Below, piece after piece: positions 36,850 to 45,518 of a stretch of 64,000 bases of DNA; the stretch's first letter is position 1; every line of letters starts with the position of its first letter. The translations under genes and the position numbers were made by a program. The notes under the pieces were generated by a model, which saw only the letters and a program-made list of their open reading frames with translations, made no database searches and was not told the origin of the DNA. The stretch is from Robertmurraya dakarensis (GTDB taxonomy: Bacteria > Bacillota > Bacilli > Bacillales > Cytobacillaceae): contig NZ_LT707408.1 of assembly GCF_900156875.1 (NCBI RefSeq), positions 195,958 through 259,957 on the forward strand. Reading direction: 5' to 3'.

Positions 36850-36891
36850 ATTGCTTAAAGCTGTGGCTTAAAAGTGGTGGAGGGGTCAAAA

Positions 36892-38487
36892 GTGGTAAGA
36901 AAAAATAGAGTGATAGTTGTACTTTTTCTATTAATTTGCTCTGCCTTTATTGCAGCTGGATGTACGAACGAAGAGTCAGCAACAGAAACAGAAACTGACA
37001 CAAAAGCAACGGCAGGGGGAGATGGAGAAAAGGTTTTAAAAGTAGGATTGCCATCTTCACCTGGAAATATTGATCCTCATTTTGCTACTACACATGTTGA
37101 ATATGAGGTCGTTCAACCTATATTTAATGGGCTAATGCGTTTTCAACCAGGGACAGCTTCCTTTGAGACGATAGAGGGCGATTTAGCGGAAAGCTGGGAA
37201 GTAAGTGATGATGGGTTAGCTTGGACCTTTAAATTAAGAAAAGGTGTACAGTGGCAAAAAGGCTACGGTGAGTTTACTTCAGCGGATGTTAAATATTCAT
37301 TTGAACGAATTATGGATCCTAAAGTAGGGAGTAGTCAACGGACATTATTTAAATATGTTAAAGAAATAGAAACACCAGATGACTACACCGTTATTCTTCA
37401 TCTGACCCAGCCATACCCAAGCTTACCTGTGAGTTTGGTGGTAGATGGATTGGCGGCGGGGGCCATTGTTAAAAAAGAGGCTATCGAGTCTGAAGGAGAT
37501 GCTGTAGATAAGCTTGTCGGTACAGGACCTTTTGCATTAGAATCCTATTCCCCTGGGGAGAAAGCTGTATTAACGAAACATGAAGATTATTTCAGGGGTG
37601 AACCTAAGCTAGACAAAATTGAAATGACGGTTATGCGTGACCTGACAGCACGTGAAGTGGCGTTAGTTAACGGTGATATTCACATGACAATAGGAGACGC
37701 TGATAAGCTATGGCTTGAACGAATGAGTAAGGAAGAAGATCTTATTATTGAAGCAACTGGGTCATACAATGTGTCTTATTTCCATATGAACGTTAATATT
37801 CCTCCGTTGGATGATATACGCGTAAGGAAAGCAATTGCCCATGCCATTGATTTTGAGAGTTATCGAAAATCTATGTACGATGAAGATATTGCGGTACCTT
37901 TAACCTCTGTCCTTAGTGATGATGCATACGGACATGCCGACATTGGAAAAGTGGAATACAATCCAGAATTATCAAAGAAGCTTTTGGCAGAGGCTGGTTA
38001 TCCAGATGGCATTAAAATTCCAAAAACATTAACACCAAATGTTGATGCTTATATTAGAGCCAATAGCTTTATTCAGGAGCAATTAAGACAGGTGGGAATT
38101 GAAGTCCCAATGGAACAAGTCGATTTACCAACGTGGATACCTGCGATTTATGGACAGAAAAACTCTGTTAATTTCCAAACAGGTGTTACAAGAGTACATG
38201 GAATTGTTCATTTACATCGCGTTTGGCATTCAGAAGGAAACGCTAATTTTACTGGATATAGCGGATCAGATGAATTATTGGAACGTGCAGAGGCAGAGAT
38301 GGAAGAAGAGAAAGCGCTTGAATTATATAAGCAGGCGCAGCAAGAGATTTTCGATGCGTATGTGTCCATACCTATTTTAGCGGGTAAGCAAATTAATGTG
38401 CGTAGAAAAGAAGTTGATTTAGGCTATGAATTAAAGGCAACTGGAATTTATATGGCTCCAAAATATGAAACAACGGATCTAAAATAG
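36892..38487 (+). CDS. Family 5 substrate-binding lipoprotein, copy 1
   Basis: A 531-residue SBP_bac_5 lipoprotein; the signal ends ICSAFIAAGC with the lipid Cys at about residue 24. Family landmarks are GNIDPHFATTHVEYEVVQP, LAESWEVSDDGLAWTFKLRK, VGTGPFALESY and the RKAIAHAIDF helix. GTG 36892 follows GGAGGGG by 6 nt; earlier in-frame GTGs lie within the ribosome binding site. It is the first of three tandem paralogues and supplies the binding protein for the upstream importer. Confidence 0.9.
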   Translation: MVRKNRVIVVLFLLICSAFIAAGCTNEESATETETDTKATAGGDGEKVLKVGLPSSPGNIDPHFATTHVEYEVVQPIFNGLMRFQPGTASFETIEGDLAESWEVSDDGLAWTFKLRKGVQWQKGYGEFTSADVKYSFERIMDPKVGSSQRTLFKYVKEIETPDDYTVILHLTQPYPSLPVSLVVDGLAAGAIVKKEAIESEGDAVDKLVGTGPFALESYSPGEKAVLTKHEDYFRGEPKLDKIEMTVMRDLTAREVALVNGDIHMTIGDADKLWLERMSKEEDLIIEATGSYNVSYFHMNVNIPPLDDIRVRKAIAHAIDFESYRKSMYDEDIAVPLTSVLSDDAYGHADIGKVEYNPELSKKLLAEAGYPDGIKIPKTLTPNVDAYIRANSFIQEQLRQVGIEVPMEQVDLPTWIPAIYGQKNSVNFQTGVTRVHGIVHLHRVWHSEGNANFTGYSGSDELLERAEAEMEEEKALELYKQAQQEIFDAYVSIPILAGKQINVRRKEVDLGYELKATGIYMAPKYETTDLK

Positions 38488-38517
38488 TAAAGTATTTTTC
38501 TTTTCACATTGTTTTAT

Positions 38518-38563
38518 AAGAGTTTTTCAATAAGTTAATTACATCTTATTGGAAACTCTTTAT
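38518..38563 (+). terminator. Hairpin after binding-protein copy 1
   Basis: AGAGTTTTTCAATAAG pairs with CTTATTGGAAACTCT, followed by TTTATCT. Similar hairpins follow copies 2 and 3. It may partly terminate or protect the mRNA 3' end. Confidence 0.65.
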
Positions 38564-38621
38564 CTATTTATTAAATATTGTTTTAAGCTTCGTGCTTAAA
38601 CGATAGTGGGGGAGTCATAAG

Positions 38622-40208
38622 GTGAAAAAGAATAGAGTAAAACTTTTGCTTTTTCTATTGCTTTGCTGTGCCTTTGTTGCAGCTGGATGTACAAATGAAG
38701 AGTCAGGAACAGAAACTGCTGCAAATGATGATAGTACGACTGGTGGAGAGAAGGTCTTAAGAGTGGGTCTAGCGTCTTCACCAGGCAATATTGATCCTCA
38801 TTTTGCTACTACACATGTTGAACTAGAAGCTACTCAACCTATATTTAATGGACTATTGCGGTTTCAACCCGGGACAGCTTCTTTCGAGACGATAGAAGGT
38901 GACTTAGCCGAAAGCTGGGAAGTAAGTGAAGATGGATTAGCTTGGACCTTTAAATTAAGAAAAGGTGTACAGTGGCATAAAGGATATGGTGAATTCACCT
39001 CTGCGGATGTTAAATATTCATTTGAACGAATTATGGATCCGGAAGTAGGAAGTATTCAACGGTCATTATTTAAATATGTTAAAGAAATAGAAACTCCAGA
39101 TGACTATACCGTTGTTCTCCATCTAACCCAGCCATACCCAAGCTTACCCGTGAGTTTGGTTATTGATGGAATGGGTGCGGGTGCTATTGTAAAAAAAGAA
39201 GCGATTGAGTCTGAAGGAGATGCTGAAGATAAGTTTGTCGGTACTGGACCTTTTGCTTTAGAAACCTATACACCAGGGGAAAAAGTCATTTTAACTAAAC
39301 ATGAAGCGTATTTTAGGGGAGAACCAAAGCTGGACAAAATTGAAATGACGGTTATGCGTGACTTAACAGCACGTGAAGTGGCGTTAGTTAACGGTGATAT
39401 TCATATGACAATAGGGGACGGTGATAAGCTTTGGATTGAAAGAATGAGTAAGGAAAAAGATCTTATTATTGAAAAAACTGGCTCTTACCTTGTATCTTAT
39501 TTCCATATGAATGTTGAGTTTCCTCCATTGGATGATATACGTGTGAGAAAAGCGATCGCACATGCCATTGATTTTGATAGTTTTCGATTATCATTATACG
39601 ATGAAGATATTGCCGTACCTCTAACTTCTGTCCTTGCTGATGATGCATACGGACATGCTGAAATCGGAAGAGTAGAATACAATCCAGAATTATCAAAAAA
39701 GCTTCTGGCGGAGGCTGGTTATCCAAATGGCTTAAAACTTCCAAAAACGGTTACACCAAATGTTGACAGTTATATTAGAGCCAATAGCTTTATTCAGGAG
39801 CAATTAAGACAAGTAGGGATTGAGATCCCAATGGAACAAGTCGATTTGCCAACGTGGATCCCTGCGATTTATGGAGGGAAAAACCCTGTTAATTATCAAT
39901 CCAGTCTTGCAAGAGCACATGGAATTGTCCATTTAAATCGTATTTGGCATTCAGAAGGAAGCGCTAATTTTCCTAGATACGGCGGTTCGGATGAACTATT
40001 AGAACGAGCAGAGGTAGAGATGGATAAAGAGAAAGCGCTTGAATTATATAAGCAGGCACAGCAAGAGATATTCGATGCGTATGTATCCATACCTGTTTTA
40101 GCTAGTAAGCAAATTAATGTCCGTCGAAAAGAAGTTGATTTAGGCTACGATTTAAAGGCAACTTGGAATTATGTGGCTCCAAAATATGAAACAACTGATC
40201 TAAAATAG
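38622..40208 (+). CDS. Family 5 substrate-binding lipoprotein, copy 2
   Basis: A 528-residue paralogue of the preceding gene, nearly alignable end to end without gaps. Lipoprotein signal ends LLLCCAFVAAGC. Differences cluster in places likely to touch ligand, for example RAHGIVHLNRIWHSEG with SANFPRYGGSD where copy 1 has NANFTGYSGSD, and DDIRVRKAIAHAIDFDSFRLSLYD. GTG 38622 is 7 nt after GGGGGAG. The variation suggests a related but distinct ligand. Confidence 0.9.
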   Translation: MKKNRVKLLLFLLLCCAFVAAGCTNEESGTETAANDDSTTGGEKVLRVGLASSPGNIDPHFATTHVELEATQPIFNGLLRFQPGTASFETIEGDLAESWEVSEDGLAWTFKLRKGVQWHKGYGEFTSADVKYSFERIMDPEVGSIQRSLFKYVKEIETPDDYTVVLHLTQPYPSLPVSLVIDGMGAGAIVKKEAIESEGDAEDKFVGTGPFALETYTPGEKVILTKHEAYFRGEPKLDKIEMTVMRDLTAREVALVNGDIHMTIGDGDKLWIERMSKEKDLIIEKTGSYLVSYFHMNVEFPPLDDIRVRKAIAHAIDFDSFRLSLYDEDIAVPLTSVLADDAYGHAEIGRVEYNPELSKKLLAEAGYPNGLKLPKTVTPNVDSYIRANSFIQEQLRQVGIEIPMEQVDLPTWIPAIYGGKNPVNYQSSLARAHGIVHLNRIWHSEGSANFPRYGGSDELLERAEVEMDKEKALELYKQAQQEIFDAYVSIPVLASKQINVRRKEVDLGYDLKATWNYVAPKYETTDLK

Positions 40209-40241
40209 TAAACCATTTTTTTATTACCATTGTTTTATAAT

Positions 40242-40284
40242 AGGTTTCCAATAAGTTATTTCCAATCTTATTGAAACTCTTTAA
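40242..40284 (+). terminator. Hairpin after binding-protein copy 2
   Basis: AGGTTTCCAATAAG pairs with CTTATTGAAACTCT, followed by TTAAC. It is a duplicate of the hairpin after copy 1. Confidence 0.6.
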
Positions 40285-40334
40285 CTGCATTAAATTATTT
40301 GAATTTTCTTACTTCTAATAGAGGAGGGGTAGTA

Positions 40335-41924
40335 ATGATAAAAAAAGGAAAATTTAATTTGTTGTTATTGCTATTTTTTAGCTTTGTCTTTATTGCAGCT
40401 GGATGTACGAATGAGGAGTCTGCTACAGAAACGGACAAAAACGCTGCCGTTGGGACAAATGGAGAGAAGGTTTTAAAAGTAGGTTTAGGAGCCTCACCAG
40501 GGAATATTGATCCCCATTTTGCTACTACACATGCTGAAATGGAAATTATTCAGCCTATCTTTAATGGATTAATGCGGTTCAAACCCGGAACTGCTAGTTT
40601 TGAAACAATAGAAGGCGACTTAGCGGAAAGCTGGGAAATCAGTGAAGATGGATTAGCTTGGACGTTCAAGTTAAGAGAAGGTGTGCAATGGCAGAAAGGA
40701 TACGGTGAGTTCACGTCTGCCGATGTTAAATATTCACTTGAACGCATTATGAATCCGGACGTAGGAAGCAGTCAACGTACATTATTCAAATATGTTAAAG
40801 AAATTGAAACGCCTGATAAATATACCGTTATTATTCATCTAACCCAACCATACCCAAGCTTACCTGTTAGTTTGGTTGTAGATGGAATGATGGCGGGTAC
40901 CATTGTTAAAAAAGAGGCTATAGAGTCTGAAGGAAATCCTGAAGATAAGCTTGTCGGTACAGGACCTTTTCAATTGGAATCCTATACCCCAGGGGAAAAG
41001 GCTGTTCTAACTAAACATGAAGCGTACTTTAGGGGAGAACCTAAGTTAGATAAAATTGAAATGACGGTTATGCGAGACTTGACTGCACGTGAAGTAGCAC
41101 TAGTTAAAGGCGATATTCATATGACTCGCGGAGAAGCTGATAAGCTTTGGATAGAAAGAATGAGCAAGGAGGAAGACATTACGATTGAAGCAACTGGATC
41201 TTACAATGTGTCAACTTTCCATATGACGGTTCATGTCCCTCCATTGGATGATATACGTGTAAGAAAAGCGATTGCACACGCCATTGATTTTGAGAGTTTA
41301 CGCAAATCTTTATACGATGAAGATATTGCGGTTCCATTAACTTCTGTTCTTAGTGAAGATGCCTACGGACATGCTGATATTGGTCAAGTGGAATATAATC
41401 CAGAATTATCGAAGAAGCTTTTAAAAGAGGCCGGATATCCGGATGGTATTAAGATTCCAAAAACGTTAACACCGAATATTGATAGTTATATAACAGCGAA
41501 TAGCTTTATTCAGGAGCAATTAAGACAAGTCGGGATTGAAGTCCCAATGGAACAAGTAGATTTACCGACATGGATACCTGCGATTTATGGACAGGAAAAC
41601 TCAGTTAATTTCCAAGCAGGAATTCAGAGATCGCATGGAATTGTTCAATTACATCGTGTATGGCATTCGGAAGGGAATGCTAATTTTACTGGCTATGGAG
41701 GCTCAGATGATTTATTAGAACAGGCAGAGGCTGAGTTAGATGAAGCGAAAGGGCTTGAATTATATAAGCAAGCACAGCAAGAAATTTTCGATGCATATGT
41801 ATCCATCCCTGTTTTTGCTGTTAAGCAAATAAATGTAATTCGAAAAGAAGTAGATTTAGGTTATGAATTAGAGGGAACCGGGGTTTATGTAGCTCCGAAA
41901 TATGAAACAACTGACTTAAAATAA
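40335..41924 (+). CDS. Family 5 substrate-binding lipoprotein, copy 3
   Basis: A 529-residue third paralogue. Lipoprotein signal ends FSFVFIAAGC. It keeps all family landmarks but changes several otherwise conserved positions: ALVKGDIHMTRGEADKLW and VSTFHMTVHVPPLDD, against ALVNGDIHMTIGDADKLW and VSYFHMNVNIPPLDD in copy 1. ATG 40335 follows GAGGAGGGG. Last gene of the importer locus; the TnpB-like gene begins about 120 bp later. Confidence 0.9.
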   Translation: MIKKGKFNLLLLLFFSFVFIAAGCTNEESATETDKNAAVGTNGEKVLKVGLGASPGNIDPHFATTHAEMEIIQPIFNGLMRFKPGTASFETIEGDLAESWEISEDGLAWTFKLREGVQWQKGYGEFTSADVKYSLERIMNPDVGSSQRTLFKYVKEIETPDKYTVIIHLTQPYPSLPVSLVVDGMMAGTIVKKEAIESEGNPEDKLVGTGPFQLESYTPGEKAVLTKHEAYFRGEPKLDKIEMTVMRDLTAREVALVKGDIHMTRGEADKLWIERMSKEEDITIEATGSYNVSTFHMTVHVPPLDDIRVRKAIAHAIDFESLRKSLYDEDIAVPLTSVLSEDAYGHADIGQVEYNPELSKKLLKEAGYPDGIKIPKTLTPNIDSYITANSFIQEQLRQVGIEVPMEQVDLPTWIPAIYGQENSVNFQAGIQRSHGIVQLHRVWHSEGNANFTGYGGSDDLLEQAEAELDEAKGLELYKQAQQEIFDAYVSIPVFAVKQINVIRKEVDLGYELEGTGVYVAPKYETTDLK

Positions 41925-41941
41925 TATTAATGGTTTAATAT

Positions 41942-41987
41942 GAGGTTTCCAGTAAGTTATTTTGAACTGATTGGAAGCCTTTTTTTA
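41942..41987 (+). terminator. Terminator of the opp-type operon
   Basis: AGGTTTCCAGT pairs with ACTGATTGGAAGCCT, followed by TTTTTTT, the strongest of the three related hairpins. Confidence 0.85.
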
Positions 41988-42017
41988 TTGCGAACATTTG
42001 TTCTATTGTGATAAAAT
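41988..42017 (+). promoter_or_regulatory. Promoter with LexA (SOS) box before the TnpB-like gene
   Basis: CGAACATTTGTTCT (41991-42004) matches the Bacillus LexA consensus CGAACATATGTTCG at 12 of 14 positions and keeps both CGAAC/GTTC half sites. It lies inside a promoter: TTGCGA (41988-41993) as -35 and an extended -10 TGATAAAAT (42009-42017). LexA bound here would block RNA polymerase, so the gene should be induced by DNA damage. Confidence 0.7.
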
Positions 42018-42041
42018 AGGAAATGAAAAGGGGTGAGTATT

Positions 42042-43496
42042 TTGGCTAAATCTACAAATCCAAGTTATGTTTTAACGTTGAGATTAGCAACTGAAATACA
42101 CCAAGAACACAAATTATTTAAAAGGTTTGAACTTGCTAGGAATATCTACAACGCTTGCTTAGGGGAATTGTTAAAAAGGTATTCGACTTTAAAACAATCA
42201 AAACGTTACAAATCTGTTTGTAGGATGGAAAAAGGAAAACAGAGAAACCAAATGTTTTCGGATTTGAACAAGGAATTTGGTTTAGCTGAGTATTCACTTC
42301 ATGAGTTCGTCAAATCTATGCAACATCAGTTCAAACAAAATTTAGACTCATTCACTTGTCAAAAAATTGCCACTAGGGCATTTAAAGCTTTTGAAAAGTT
42401 ACTATATAAACAAGGAAAAAAGGTTAAATTTAAGAAATACGGAGAAATGGGATCTGTCGAAGGGAAAACCAATTCAACTGGGATTCGCTACAAAAATGGT
42501 AATATTGTTTGGAACGCACTTGTTCTTCGAACTATTGTAAAGAAAAAGGATGTATATGCTCATTTGGCATTGAGAGATAGAATTAAATTTGTCAGGATAA
42601 AAAGAGAGTGGTTCAAGGACAAGTATGTGTACTATGCCCAGTTAGTATTGGAAGGTATTCCTCCTAAGAAGTACAATAATGAAGGTGTTAAAGATAACAA
42701 AACTAATGAGAGCAAAGTTGGAGTTGATATAGGGACATCCACCGTTGCAGTTTGTTCTGAAAATGGAGTGTTTTTAACGGAATTAGCACCGAGTGTTGCC
42801 GACTTTGGCAAGAGGATAACAATGATACAAAGGGCTATGGATAGAAGTAAAAGAGCAATGAACCCTTTAAAGTACAACGAGGATGGAACCGTTGATACTA
42901 ATAACAAATCGAAATGGTATTTTTCAAAACGGTATATAGTTAAGAAAAACCAATTGAAAGAACTGCAAAGGTTAAATAAAGTAAAACGGAAGCAGGATCA
43001 CGAAATCCTCTCGAATCGCATCATCTCGCTCGGCACAAATGTTATCGTTGAAACGATGAGTTTTAAGGTACTTCAGAAACGAACGAAAAAAACTACGGTA
43101 AATGAAAGAGGTAAATTCAATTCAAAGAAAAGGTTTGGTAGAACTATAAGTAATCGGGCCCCTGCAATGCTCCTCGCTATTATTGACCGCAAATTAAAGT
43201 ACACTGACAAAAACTTAAAAAAGGTAAACACAATTCTAATAAGAGCTAGTCAATACAATCATATAACTGATACCTATGAAAAGAAAGAACTTCATCAAAG
43301 GTGGAATGACTTTCATTTTTGTAAAATCCAAAGGGATTTATATTCAGCCTTTTTGCTTATGAACTGCAAAGATAATTTGCAAGAAATAGATAGGGAATTA
43401 TGCATACAAAACTTTGAACGATTTAGAGAGAAACATGATTTAGAAATTCAATCATTAAAAGTGAAAGAGAGAACCCCCATTTCAATGGGTGTTTAA
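42042..43496 (+). CDS. TnpB-like RuvC nuclease (IS605 OrfB family) without zinc finger
   Basis: A 484-residue TnpB/OrfB-family protein. The RuvC triad is intact: Asp229 in VGVDIGTSTVAV, Glu337 in VIVETMSF and Asp432 in QRDLYSAFLL. The CxxC...CxxC zinc finger that TnpB normally has between the second and third motifs is absent; that stretch reads RASQYNHITDTYEKKELHQR. The N-terminal OrfB helix-turn-helix region (KRFELARNIYNACLGELLKR) is present. No tnpA is nearby. The TTG start at 42042 follows AAAAGGGGTG; GTG 42033 overlaps this site. TnpB proteins are RNA-guided DNA nucleases using a 3'-encoded omega RNA, and a structured region follows. Function beyond the family is not known. Confidence 0.85.
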   Translation: MAKSTNPSYVLTLRLATEIHQEHKLFKRFELARNIYNACLGELLKRYSTLKQSKRYKSVCRMEKGKQRNQMFSDLNKEFGLAEYSLHEFVKSMQHQFKQNLDSFTCQKIATRAFKAFEKLLYKQGKKVKFKKYGEMGSVEGKTNSTGIRYKNGNIVWNALVLRTIVKKKDVYAHLALRDRIKFVRIKREWFKDKYVYYAQLVLEGIPPKKYNNEGVKDNKTNESKVGVDIGTSTVAVCSENGVFLTELAPSVADFGKRITMIQRAMDRSKRAMNPLKYNEDGTVDTNNKSKWYFSKRYIVKKNQLKELQRLNKVKRKQDHEILSNRIISLGTNVIVETMSFKVLQKRTKKTTVNERGKFNSKKRFGRTISNRAPAMLLAIIDRKLKYTDKNLKKVNTILIRASQYNHITDTYEKKELHQRWNDFHFCKIQRDLYSAFLLMNCKDNLQEIDRELCIQNFERFREKHDLEIQSLKVKERTPISMGV

Positions 43497-43499
43497 TAA

Positions 43500-43717
43500 T
43501 GAATATCGGTTTAGATACGAGCCGAAACAATCGCAAATAGAAACGATGGTTTCTTTGGTTGTAGAAGTCTAATTGAACATATATGAGTTCCTTTATGTTG
43601 TAACTCGAGAAGTTTATAATCTTTCGGGTGAGAGTATTGGAGATGTGTATAAGTAAATTAGAACCCCACTCCTTCAGGTGTGGTAGTATCAGACTTCTAT
43701 AGAATACTGTTATATTC
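43500..43717 (+). ncRNA. Candidate omega RNA (guide RNA) of the TnpB-like protein
   Basis: No protein is encoded, but the region is full of pairing: GAAACGATGGTTTC (43540-43553); GAAC...GTTC near 43575-43590; CCACtCC-TTCA-GGtGTGG (43666-43683), like the right-end hairpin of IS605-type elements; and a long-range 9-bp pair TAGAAGTCT (43562-43570) with AGACTTCTA (43691-43699), like the pseudoknot that closes TnpB guide RNAs. The guide would begin just after this. Limits are estimates. The remaining gap 43718-44111 holds no gene I can support. Confidence 0.55.
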
Positions 43718-44111: not shown

Positions 44112-45518
44112 ATGGCTAAAAAACAGATGGGTACTAAGAAAGTAAATAAAACATTGTCGAAGAAAGTAGCTCCATTAGTAATGTCAACATCAATGGTAGC
44201 AGCAACCTTATTAGCAGCTGGTGCACCGATTTCTGCCGCAGAGCTTGATAAGAAGGGTGTTAATCCTGATGTTGTTGAACAAGTGAAAAATCACGGTCAG
44301 GAAGTATCTTCATTAGCAAAAAGTCTTCCAGGATCTCCTGAAAAAGGTGCGCTTGTTAGCGAACTAGCTAAAGAAAAATCCGGAAAAACAGATGATGCTT
44401 CTGATGACAATGAAAACATAGATGAAACAAATAATGATGAGCCGCAAGATGGTAATATAAGTGACGATACAGCAGAAGCAGATGACCAGGTAAATGATGA
44501 TGAAGCAGAAGTAGATGAAGAAATAGAAGAGGAAGAAACAGATGCGCCAGCAGCGGAAGATGAACAAGTAATTGATGATGAAGCAGATGAAGAAATAGAA
44601 GACATAGAAACAGAGGCGCCAGCAGAAGAAGATGGTGAAGTAAATGATGATGAAGCAGAAGCGGATGATGAAACAGAAGAGGAAGAGACAGAGGCACCAG
44701 CAGAGGAAGATGGCCAGGTAGAAGATGACGCAGCAGAAACTGAGGATGGCGCTGGAGATGATACTGAAACTCCTGTTGAAGACACGACTTCAGAAAATAC
44801 TAATGCAAAAGATGAAGAGGCTGACTCTAGTAAATGGGTAGATGAAACATATCAATTTATCGGTGATAGCTATCAAAGTGTGATTGGGTATTACCAAGCT
44901 TTTCTTGATCAATATTTAAGTCAATCAGATTCTGACCAAACAAATGAGGATTCTGAAAACACACCAGTCGCAGAAGAGGTTTCTGATGTATCTGCTGATT
45001 CTAATAACCCAGAAACAACAGATTTAGAGGCAAATACTGACTTAGATACCACGGTTGATAACTCTGATACGGGTTTAACAGCTGTTACTGATGTCAATGT
45101 GGATAGCGATATGAGTGTAGACGCTGAGGATCAACCTACTGATCTTGAAGAAACAGCAGCGCAAGAAACAGAAGTACCTGTAGAAGAGACAGAAACAGAT
45201 GTTGTGGAACCAGTACCAACAGAAGATGAGGAAGTAACATCTACTACAGAAACAGAAAGTGAAAATGAAGATCAACCTACTGTCCTTGAAGAAACAACAC
45301 CGGAAGAAACAGTAGAACCTGTAGAAAATACAGAAACAGATGTTTTGGAACCGACACAAACAGGAGATGAAGAAGTAACTTCTACTACCGACACAGAACA
45401 AGTGAGTGAAAATGAAGCAGAAAAAGAATCCGATCAAAATTCTTTAAAGGATAAATTAATTGGATACTATCAGGATCTAGTAGCTTCATTCTCTAACCTT
45501 ACGAACTTCTTTAAGTAA
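44112..45518 (+). CDS. Secreted, highly acidic repeat protein
   Basis: A 468-residue protein with a basic N-terminus, a hydrophobic segment (VAPLVMSTSMVAATLLAAGAP) and a likely signal-peptidase site after ISAA (about residue 43). The mature part is extremely acidic: residues about 100-215 contain four copies of a roughly 28-residue unit with EAD/E-rich stretches and an APAEEDG end, and residues about 335-440 hold two copies of a unit with EDQPT.LEET and TETD...EP. Two similar amphipathic motifs, QSVIGYYQAFLDQYL and DKLIGYYQDLVASFSNL, occur in the middle and at the C-terminus. No anchoring motif (LPXTG) is visible. ATG 44112 follows TAGGAGAG. Function is unknown; calcium binding or a surface/matrix role are guesses. 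Confidence 0.8.
   Translation: MAKKQMGTKKVNKTLSKKVAPLVMSTSMVAATLLAAGAPISAAELDKKGVNPDVVEQVKNHGQEVSSLAKSLPGSPEKGALVSELAKEKSGKTDDASDDNENIDETNNDEPQDGNISDDTAEADDQVNDDEAEVDEEIEEEETDAPAAEDEQVIDDEADEEIEDIETEAPAEEDGEVNDDEAEADDETEEEETEAPAEEDGQVEDDAAETEDGAGDDTETPVEDTTSENTNAKDEEADSSKWVDETYQFIGDSYQSVIGYYQAFLDQYLSQSDSDQTNEDSENTPVAEEVSDVSADSNNPETTDLEANTDLDTTVDNSDTGLTAVTDVNVDSDMSVDAEDQPTDLEETAAQETEVPVEETETDVVEPVPTEDEEVTSTTETESENEDQPTVLEETTPEETVEPVENTETDVLEPTQTGDEEVTSTTDTEQVSENEAEKESDQNSLKDKLIGYYQDLVASFSNLTNFFK

Follow-up and report, generated by a model that had tools for sequence, protein, structure and literature searches.

A predicted LexA operator in the core promoter of a TnpB-like gene, and its recurrence before related tnpB genes

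What turns on the gene of an RNA-guided nuclease, and what keeps it quiet the rest of the time? TnpB is presumed to be the protein from which Cas12 descended; to our knowledge, the means by which hosts switch on tnpB genes have been little studied. The question is raised here by a TnpB-like gene in a 64,000-nucleotide stretch of the Robertmurraya dakarensis genome (contig NZ_LT707408.1; "the window" below means this whole stretch), for which the original prediction, made from the sequence, had proposed a LexA/SOS box inside the promoter. We consider it quite probable that the 14-mer CGAACATTTGTTCT is a LexA operator placed in the tnpB core promoter, where it would hold the nuclease off until DNA is damaged. 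Taken separately, the identity of the site as a LexA operator is very likely, and SOS induction of tnpB is likely.

The box, at 41991-42004, agrees with the Bacillus LexA consensus CGAACRNRYGTTYG at 12 of 14 positions, as had been claimed, and direct reading bears out its position between a -35 element, TTGCGA, and an extended -10 element, TGATAAAAT; the spacer between TTGCGA and TAAAAT is 18 base pairs (bp) long, and the box thus overlaps the core promoter. Counted as a bare dyad with up to two mismatches, sites of this kind number 10 in the window against 12.8 expected. Such a count fails to tell a site from chance and was dropped as a test; a 14-column matrix was therefore built from 127 operator sites upstream of lexA and recA in genomes of the same bacterial family, drawing on 30 of 30 lexA loci and 29 of 30 recA loci. 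On this matrix the window box scores 18.8, above the median of 17.4 for the family's lexA/recA operators and level with the boxes of lexA itself, and the next best site in the 64 kb scores 9.5. None of 1.92 million positions simulated under a first-order Markov model reached 18.7. The host has the matching circuitry: boxes lie upstream of lexA at 30 of 30 loci and of recA at 30 of 30 loci in the family, and the host's own lexA carries three and its own recA one. Stronger evidence than the score, in our judgement, is the place of the box in the core promoter and its recurrence before relatives.

That recurrence begins in the genome itself, where all three TnpB-like genes that were found carry a box. 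The sister copy, whose protein is 89% identical and interrupted by one stop codon, has AGAACATATGTTCC at the same place and starts with ATG, versus TTG in the window copy (dN/dS, the ratio of nonsynonymous to synonymous divergence, is 0.19 between the two); the third gene, of the canonical TnpB type, has CAAACGTTTGTTCT. By its own terms, the original prediction would have been contradicted by close homologues without the box. The box was present in the sister copy and at loci L018, L019, L020/L114, and L191, whose proteins are 71 to 75% identical to the window protein, again at the same place. Across the six nearest promoters (L001, L002, L018, L019, L020, and L191) GAA...GTTC is fixed, and the centre, the outer bases, and the spacer vary. 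Synonymous sites are saturated between the window gene and L018 (dS 3.4) or L019 (dS 3.1) and not computable for L191 and L020; among the 15 gene pairs they are saturated or not computable in 11. The predicted operator has thus been kept before the orthologues.

The wider survey covered relatives of the window gene in all taxa, comprising 100 distinct promoters from 111 loci once L176, which has no N-terminus, and 10 duplicate promoters had been dropped. A score of at least 8 was reached in 48 of the 100; among 2133 control stretches of equal length taken from these loci, 30 reached it (1.4%). The box stands before 43 of the 64 relatives without a recognisable tnpA directly upstream (called solo or tnpA-less here) and before 5 of the 36 with one; in some solo loci (e.g., L026, L027, and L030) a remnant of tnpA is apparently kept 3' of the box. 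The family's canonical TnpB genes had been chosen to serve as a negative control, but 28 of 31 proved to have a box, and the idea that the box is confined to the zinc-less lineage was thereby ruled out. Two of these 31 (L207 and L218) have tnpA upstream and are boxless; with them left out, the figure for this set, which consists of best-scoring matches, most in one clade, is 28 of 29. A later set of 40 canonical genes from the same search, picked by hand down the ranking prior to scoring and with near-copies kept, has the box in 23 of 32 tnpA-less genes and in 1 of the 8 that have tnpA upstream, so that both sets together give 51 boxed promoters among 61 tnpA-less TnpB genes of the family. With these counts and the boxes before close homologues, what began as a plausible LexA match becomes a candidate for a conserved operator.

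Could chance produce this pattern? The bare dyad is common, which would favour a fortuitous match in one promoter. Dinucleotide shuffles at the threshold of 8, however, gave boxes in a mean of 1.7 of the 64 tnpA-less relatives and 0.5 of the 29 canonical genes (largest of 60 shuffles, 5 and 2), and IS110 promoters from the same bacterial family had none (0 of 30). The matrix score and the later canonical set speak the same way, and recurrence before relatives already refutes an accident in one promoter, which we regard as hardly credible. (The IS110-type transposase family has 22 matches in the host's own genome.)

A conserved palindrome near the start of a mobile element might instead belong to the structure of the transposon's left end, for example as a TnpA hairpin or a target-site feature, and happen to resemble a LexA box; it is true that the distance from box to start is frequently no more than about 60 bp, which places the box near the left end. 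Yet elements with tnpA directly upstream are mostly boxless (the 5 of 36 and 1 of 8 given above, and 5 of 55 in the set used for the tree). In L002 and L018-L020 the left-end hairpin is separate from the box and upstream of it, and the variation among boxes tracks the lexA/recA matrix. The tree, which comprises 165 proteins after removal of three short proteins and of identical ones, was built by a quick method and has several long branches. On it the box changes state (gain or loss) at least 24 times, and well-supported branches force 18 of these changes; shuffled labels need 55. Of the 110 genes without tnpA, 75 are boxed. When pairs of genes independent of one another on the tree were compared, tnpA and the box were opposed about 10 times versus 1 (median p 0.012, range 0.002-0.11). 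It was through this comparison that a transposon-end origin was rejected, and we hold it to be very improbable. The box also shifts its place: the window lineage has it between -35 and -10, most canonical genes (judged by eye) have it immediately 3' of the -10, and in the L037-L046 group it precedes tnpA. These patterns are the behaviour of an operator and not of a fixed transposon end.

If the box is an operator, its repressor need not be LexA: a LexA/HdiR-like protein, a phage-type repressor, or TnpB itself might use the GAAC-N4-GTTC dyad. In the canonical set the outer positions are often unlike those of lexA/recA boxes, and some relatives have extra matches to the LexA DNA-binding family, both of which would suit a different regulator. 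The host's own genome argues otherwise, as its single match to that family is lexA itself and the boxes before lexA score no higher than the window site. We judge a regulator other than LexA improbable.

Several results weigh against LexA control or narrow its reach. The bare dyad is not enriched, and over the whole genome its one-mismatch form occurs at 48 sites against 150 for a reversed control. Many canonical boxes are without the outer C...G pair (for example AGAACAAACGTTCC, whose score of 12.7 would rank low among the lexA/recA sites), and for that reason some of them may bind weakly. The canonical sets consist of related genes and are not independent draws. Column-permuted symmetric matrices at the threshold of 8 gave means of 2.6 of 64 and 0.75 of 29; one permuted matrix of the 60 reached 26 of 64, and the largest value in the canonical set was 9 of 29. 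At a threshold of 12, the largest permuted value among the 64 tnpA-less relatives was 3, against 32 observed. In the tree set, 35 of the 110 tnpA-less genes are boxless.

Outside the family, the box was found in 3 of 30 TnpB promoters from the same class and 5 of 29 from the same phylum, these loci being the highest-scoring matches outside the host's own family and not a random sample (three class loci and one phylum locus come from its own order, and L244 and L255 have tnpA upstream). Viral contigs gave 0 of 19 TnpB loci, a set that includes the Geobacillus phage also labelled L267 and a contig equal in length to that of L157; plasmid TnpB loci of mixed taxa gave 0 of 11, where scoring for L227, L228, and L231, which have tnpA upstream, was confined to the part of tnpA that precedes tnpB; and nine further named plasmid and phage loci gave 0 of 9. 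Boxes of the host's own type were likewise sought before the 11 plasmid tnpB genes, and no convincing site emerged; a Hydrogenophaga plasmid came nearest, with a CTGT-N8-ACAG core at -126 that has one mismatch. One plasmid each of E. coli and Streptomyces has a one-mismatch GTTC-N7-GTTC core, which in these hosts we take not to be the LexA type. The class, phylum, and viral counts rule out the proposal that all Bacillota TnpB genes carry the box. A boxed tnpB is thus mainly a trait of this bacterial family, with scattered cases elsewhere in Bacillota, and not peculiar to the window gene. Relatives of the window TnpB are also encoded by two phages, at L268 (Clostridioides phage AR1086-1) and L267 (Geobacillus virus E3); at both loci a tnpA-like gene lies upstream and the LexA box is absent.

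The gene behind the promoter had been called TnpB-like, an identity that fold and active site bear out. The protein matches NCBIfam NF040570 at 2.5e-20 and 73.1 bits, below that family's cut-off of 100 bits, and on this score it is probably best placed in a divergent lineage. Searches with the sequence against Pfam at the default limit and against the Protein Data Bank (PDB) returned no match. The predicted structure (pLDDT, the predicted local distance difference test, 86.5) finds 8iaz as its best PDB match (E 2.7e-13; template modelling score 0.59 by query length), followed by 8exa and 8h1j, so that the TnpB proteins of ISFba1 and ISDra2 rank first among the structures. D229, E337, and D432, which we take from known TnpB motifs to be the catalytic triad, are invariant across 24 aligned sequences (L171 was left out of this alignment). 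No zinc ribbon was recognised, there being zero CxxC motifs in the 484 residues, and a Cas12f1-like TNB domain is matched by the canonical protein of L052 and not by the window protein. The product is thus a candidate TnpB RNA-guided nuclease. Its fold, RuvC triad, omega-RNA-like 3' region, and right-end hairpin are those of IS200/IS605 TnpB (ISDra2 and ISFba1); it differs from them in having no zinc ribbon, in falling below the NCBIfam cut-off, and in the LexA-like operator of its promoter. The parts of the locus are collected in Table 1.

Table 1. Features of the TnpB-like locus, in window coordinates
Feature	Position	Strand	Basis or remark
Terminator-like hairpin and T-run (intrinsic type)	41942-41986	+	Adjoins the promoter on its 5' side; 41938-41987 folds at -18.9 kcal/mol
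-35 element TTGCGA	41988-41993	+	Read directly; shares three bases with the LexA box
Predicted LexA/SOS operator CGAACATTTGTTCT	41991-42004	+	Matrix score 18.8; counterparts in sister copy and orthologues
-10 element TAAAAT; extended form TGATAAAAT from 42009	42012-42017	+	Read directly; kept in six relatives
GGGGTGAG as ribosome-binding site; start codon TTG (42042)	42030-42044	+	Sister copy starts with ATG
TnpB-like protein, 484 residues; RuvC D229, E337, D432; no CxxC zinc ribbon	42042-43496	+	NF040570 match, alignment, predicted fold
Omega-RNA-like 3' region ending ...AGTATCAG	43494-43692	+	Alignment with five relatives
Right-end hairpin CCCAC...GTGG, IS200/IS605-like	43663-43687	+	Kept in six aligned copies
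Predicted guide: host flank directly after the element end	43693-43712	+	Inferred from known TnpB organisation

Downstream of the gene, 43441-43693 aligns over six copies (the window and five relatives) with a mean column identity of 86%; the alignment is mostly noncoding and takes in the last ~50 coding bases. This identity persists although synonymous sites are saturated or not computable in 11 of the 15 gene pairs. The 3' region has 68 consensus pairs, 7 of which show a two-sided change in at least one sequence. An Rfam search of the region found no match. The copies cease to be similar after AGTATCAG. By analogy with known TnpB loci, this anatomy would be that of an omega-RNA-like scaffold, conserved and foldable and overlapping the right end, followed by a host-derived guide.

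The other end of the element has been lost. A left end is present in L002 and L018-L020 and is replaced in the window copy, where the hairpin at 41942-41986 stands in the position occupied in relatives by the element's own left end and terminator-like hairpin; L002, L018-L020, and L191 have a different hairpin and T-run at the corresponding place. Hairpins of the form TCGAACAA...TTGTTCGA lie 5' of boxed tnpB promoters at L213 (1330-1500) and at L002/L018-L020, accompanied by a T-run in the latter, and their outer arms look like half LexA boxes. Without its left end the window copy is of doubtful mobility and is probably no longer mobilised by a TnpA. No Y1-transposase-like gene was found within the 64-kb window; three lie elsewhere in the genome.

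How might the parts work together? In an undamaged cell, a LexA dimer sitting over the -35 and spacer region would block transcription of the tnpB mRNA, and the block would extend to the omega-RNA, which would be made from the 3' end of that transcript; terminator and operator together would leave little transcription. DNA damage, or single-stranded DNA entering the cell, would activate RecA and bring about the self-cleavage of LexA. TnpB and its guide RNA would then appear alongside the SOS recombination machinery, and TnpB could cut matching element-free sites at a time when RecA can repair them from an element-bearing copy. The purpose we would ascribe to the operator is to time the cut to repair and to keep a risky nuclease otherwise silent. 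Extended to the host's Bacillaceae-like family, this suggests a common arrangement, gained and lost repeatedly over the tree: nucleases without tnpA would fire only during SOS, their cut would meet abundant RecA and a repair template, and damage would offer the element an opportunity for retention and homing. We offer the family-wide version tentatively, as somewhat less than an even prospect. A point against it at this locus is that, without a left end, retention by recutting the empty site may not apply to the window copy.

The main rival to such a timing role is that LexA control merely limits harm, keeping a toxic nuclease silent with no part to play in damage. Silencing would be reinforced by the terminator-like hairpin that stands 5' of the boxed promoter both in the window copy and in its close relatives, and the ISCR transposase promoters are likewise reported to be very low in the presence of LexA (PMC13393415). 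Silencing could, however, be served by any repressor, and the presence of a damage-released one in many branches of the tree suggests that release matters. Pure harm limitation seems to us rather unlikely, although of all the alternatives it has the best claim.

In open-licence PubMed Central full text, a body that leaves most subscription papers and bioRxiv outside, no report of a LexA-controlled tnpB was found. The closest published precedent appears to be the LexA-controlled transposase genes of ISCR1/2/8 (IS91-like) in E. coli, for which LexA binding and lacZ fusions are reported, along with IS10 and Tn5 as earlier, partly disputed cases (PMC13393415). In both settings an insertion-sequence gene has a promoter overlapped by a LexA operator, here a predicted one; the ISCR genes have a proteobacterial CTGT-N8-ACAG box and encode an HUH transposase, whereas here a Bacillus-type box precedes an RNA-guided nuclease gene, and the boxed genes are mainly those without tnpA upstream. 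DNA damage also raises the activity of an IS200/IS605 element in the radiation-induced transposition of ISDra2, although the effect is reported to be on TnpA-dependent excision and insertion, TnpB being dispensable, and the portion of that work at hand describes no LexA operator before tnpB (PMC2806898). Phage GIL01 of B. thuringiensis is likewise a mobile element that makes direct use of the host's LexA through a CGAAC-N4-GTTCG-type box, one that serves the phage's lysogeny switch and not a nuclease gene (PMC4551915). The predicted LexA regulon of C. difficile includes a "transposase," 97b34v1_600001, with a predicted site GAAC....GTTT before it; that case is listed for one strain group, its site lies at -217, and the transposase type is not stated in the part of the paper seen (PMC4234289).

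The identical 14-mer CGAACATTTGTTCT occurs at two further positions in the genome. One (L048:1497-1931; C10, ~889996-890430) precedes a minus-strand gene of 130 residues (1497-1889), near a VTT/DedA-domain gene; we take it to be yhjD, an SOS gene of B. subtilis, and the pair to correspond to yhjD/yhjE of that regulon. At the other (L049:2115-2590; C11, ~2915114-2915589), beside the tmRNA gene, CGAACATTTGTTCT lies 57 bp before the start of a gene for a free-standing LAGLIDADG endonuclease of 135 residues and downstream of a TGATAAAAT. Relatives of this gene include 9 phage records; a search of plasmids and viral contigs found none. It is possibly a second SOS-controlled selfish nuclease, and the same operator before it suggests that unrelated selfish nucleases converge on the LexA box. 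This box points the same way as the tnpB boxes, although one case proves nothing.

Around the element, the window holds three tandem paralogous family-5 solute-binding protein genes directly upstream of tnpB (36874-41924), 81 to 87% identical over one 300-nucleotide stretch, the last of them followed by the terminator-like hairpin of Table 1. After the element comes a gene (44112-45518) for a very acidic, repeat-rich protein of 468 residues with a signal-like N-terminus and no Pfam match.

If the LexA gate is real, it would supply a natural signal for the expression of tnpB genes and explain how a potentially harmful nuclease persists in silence. It would also make cutting coincide with the time at which the element can be restored by recombination, and antibiotics and other inducers of the SOS response would be predicted to change the activity of these elements.
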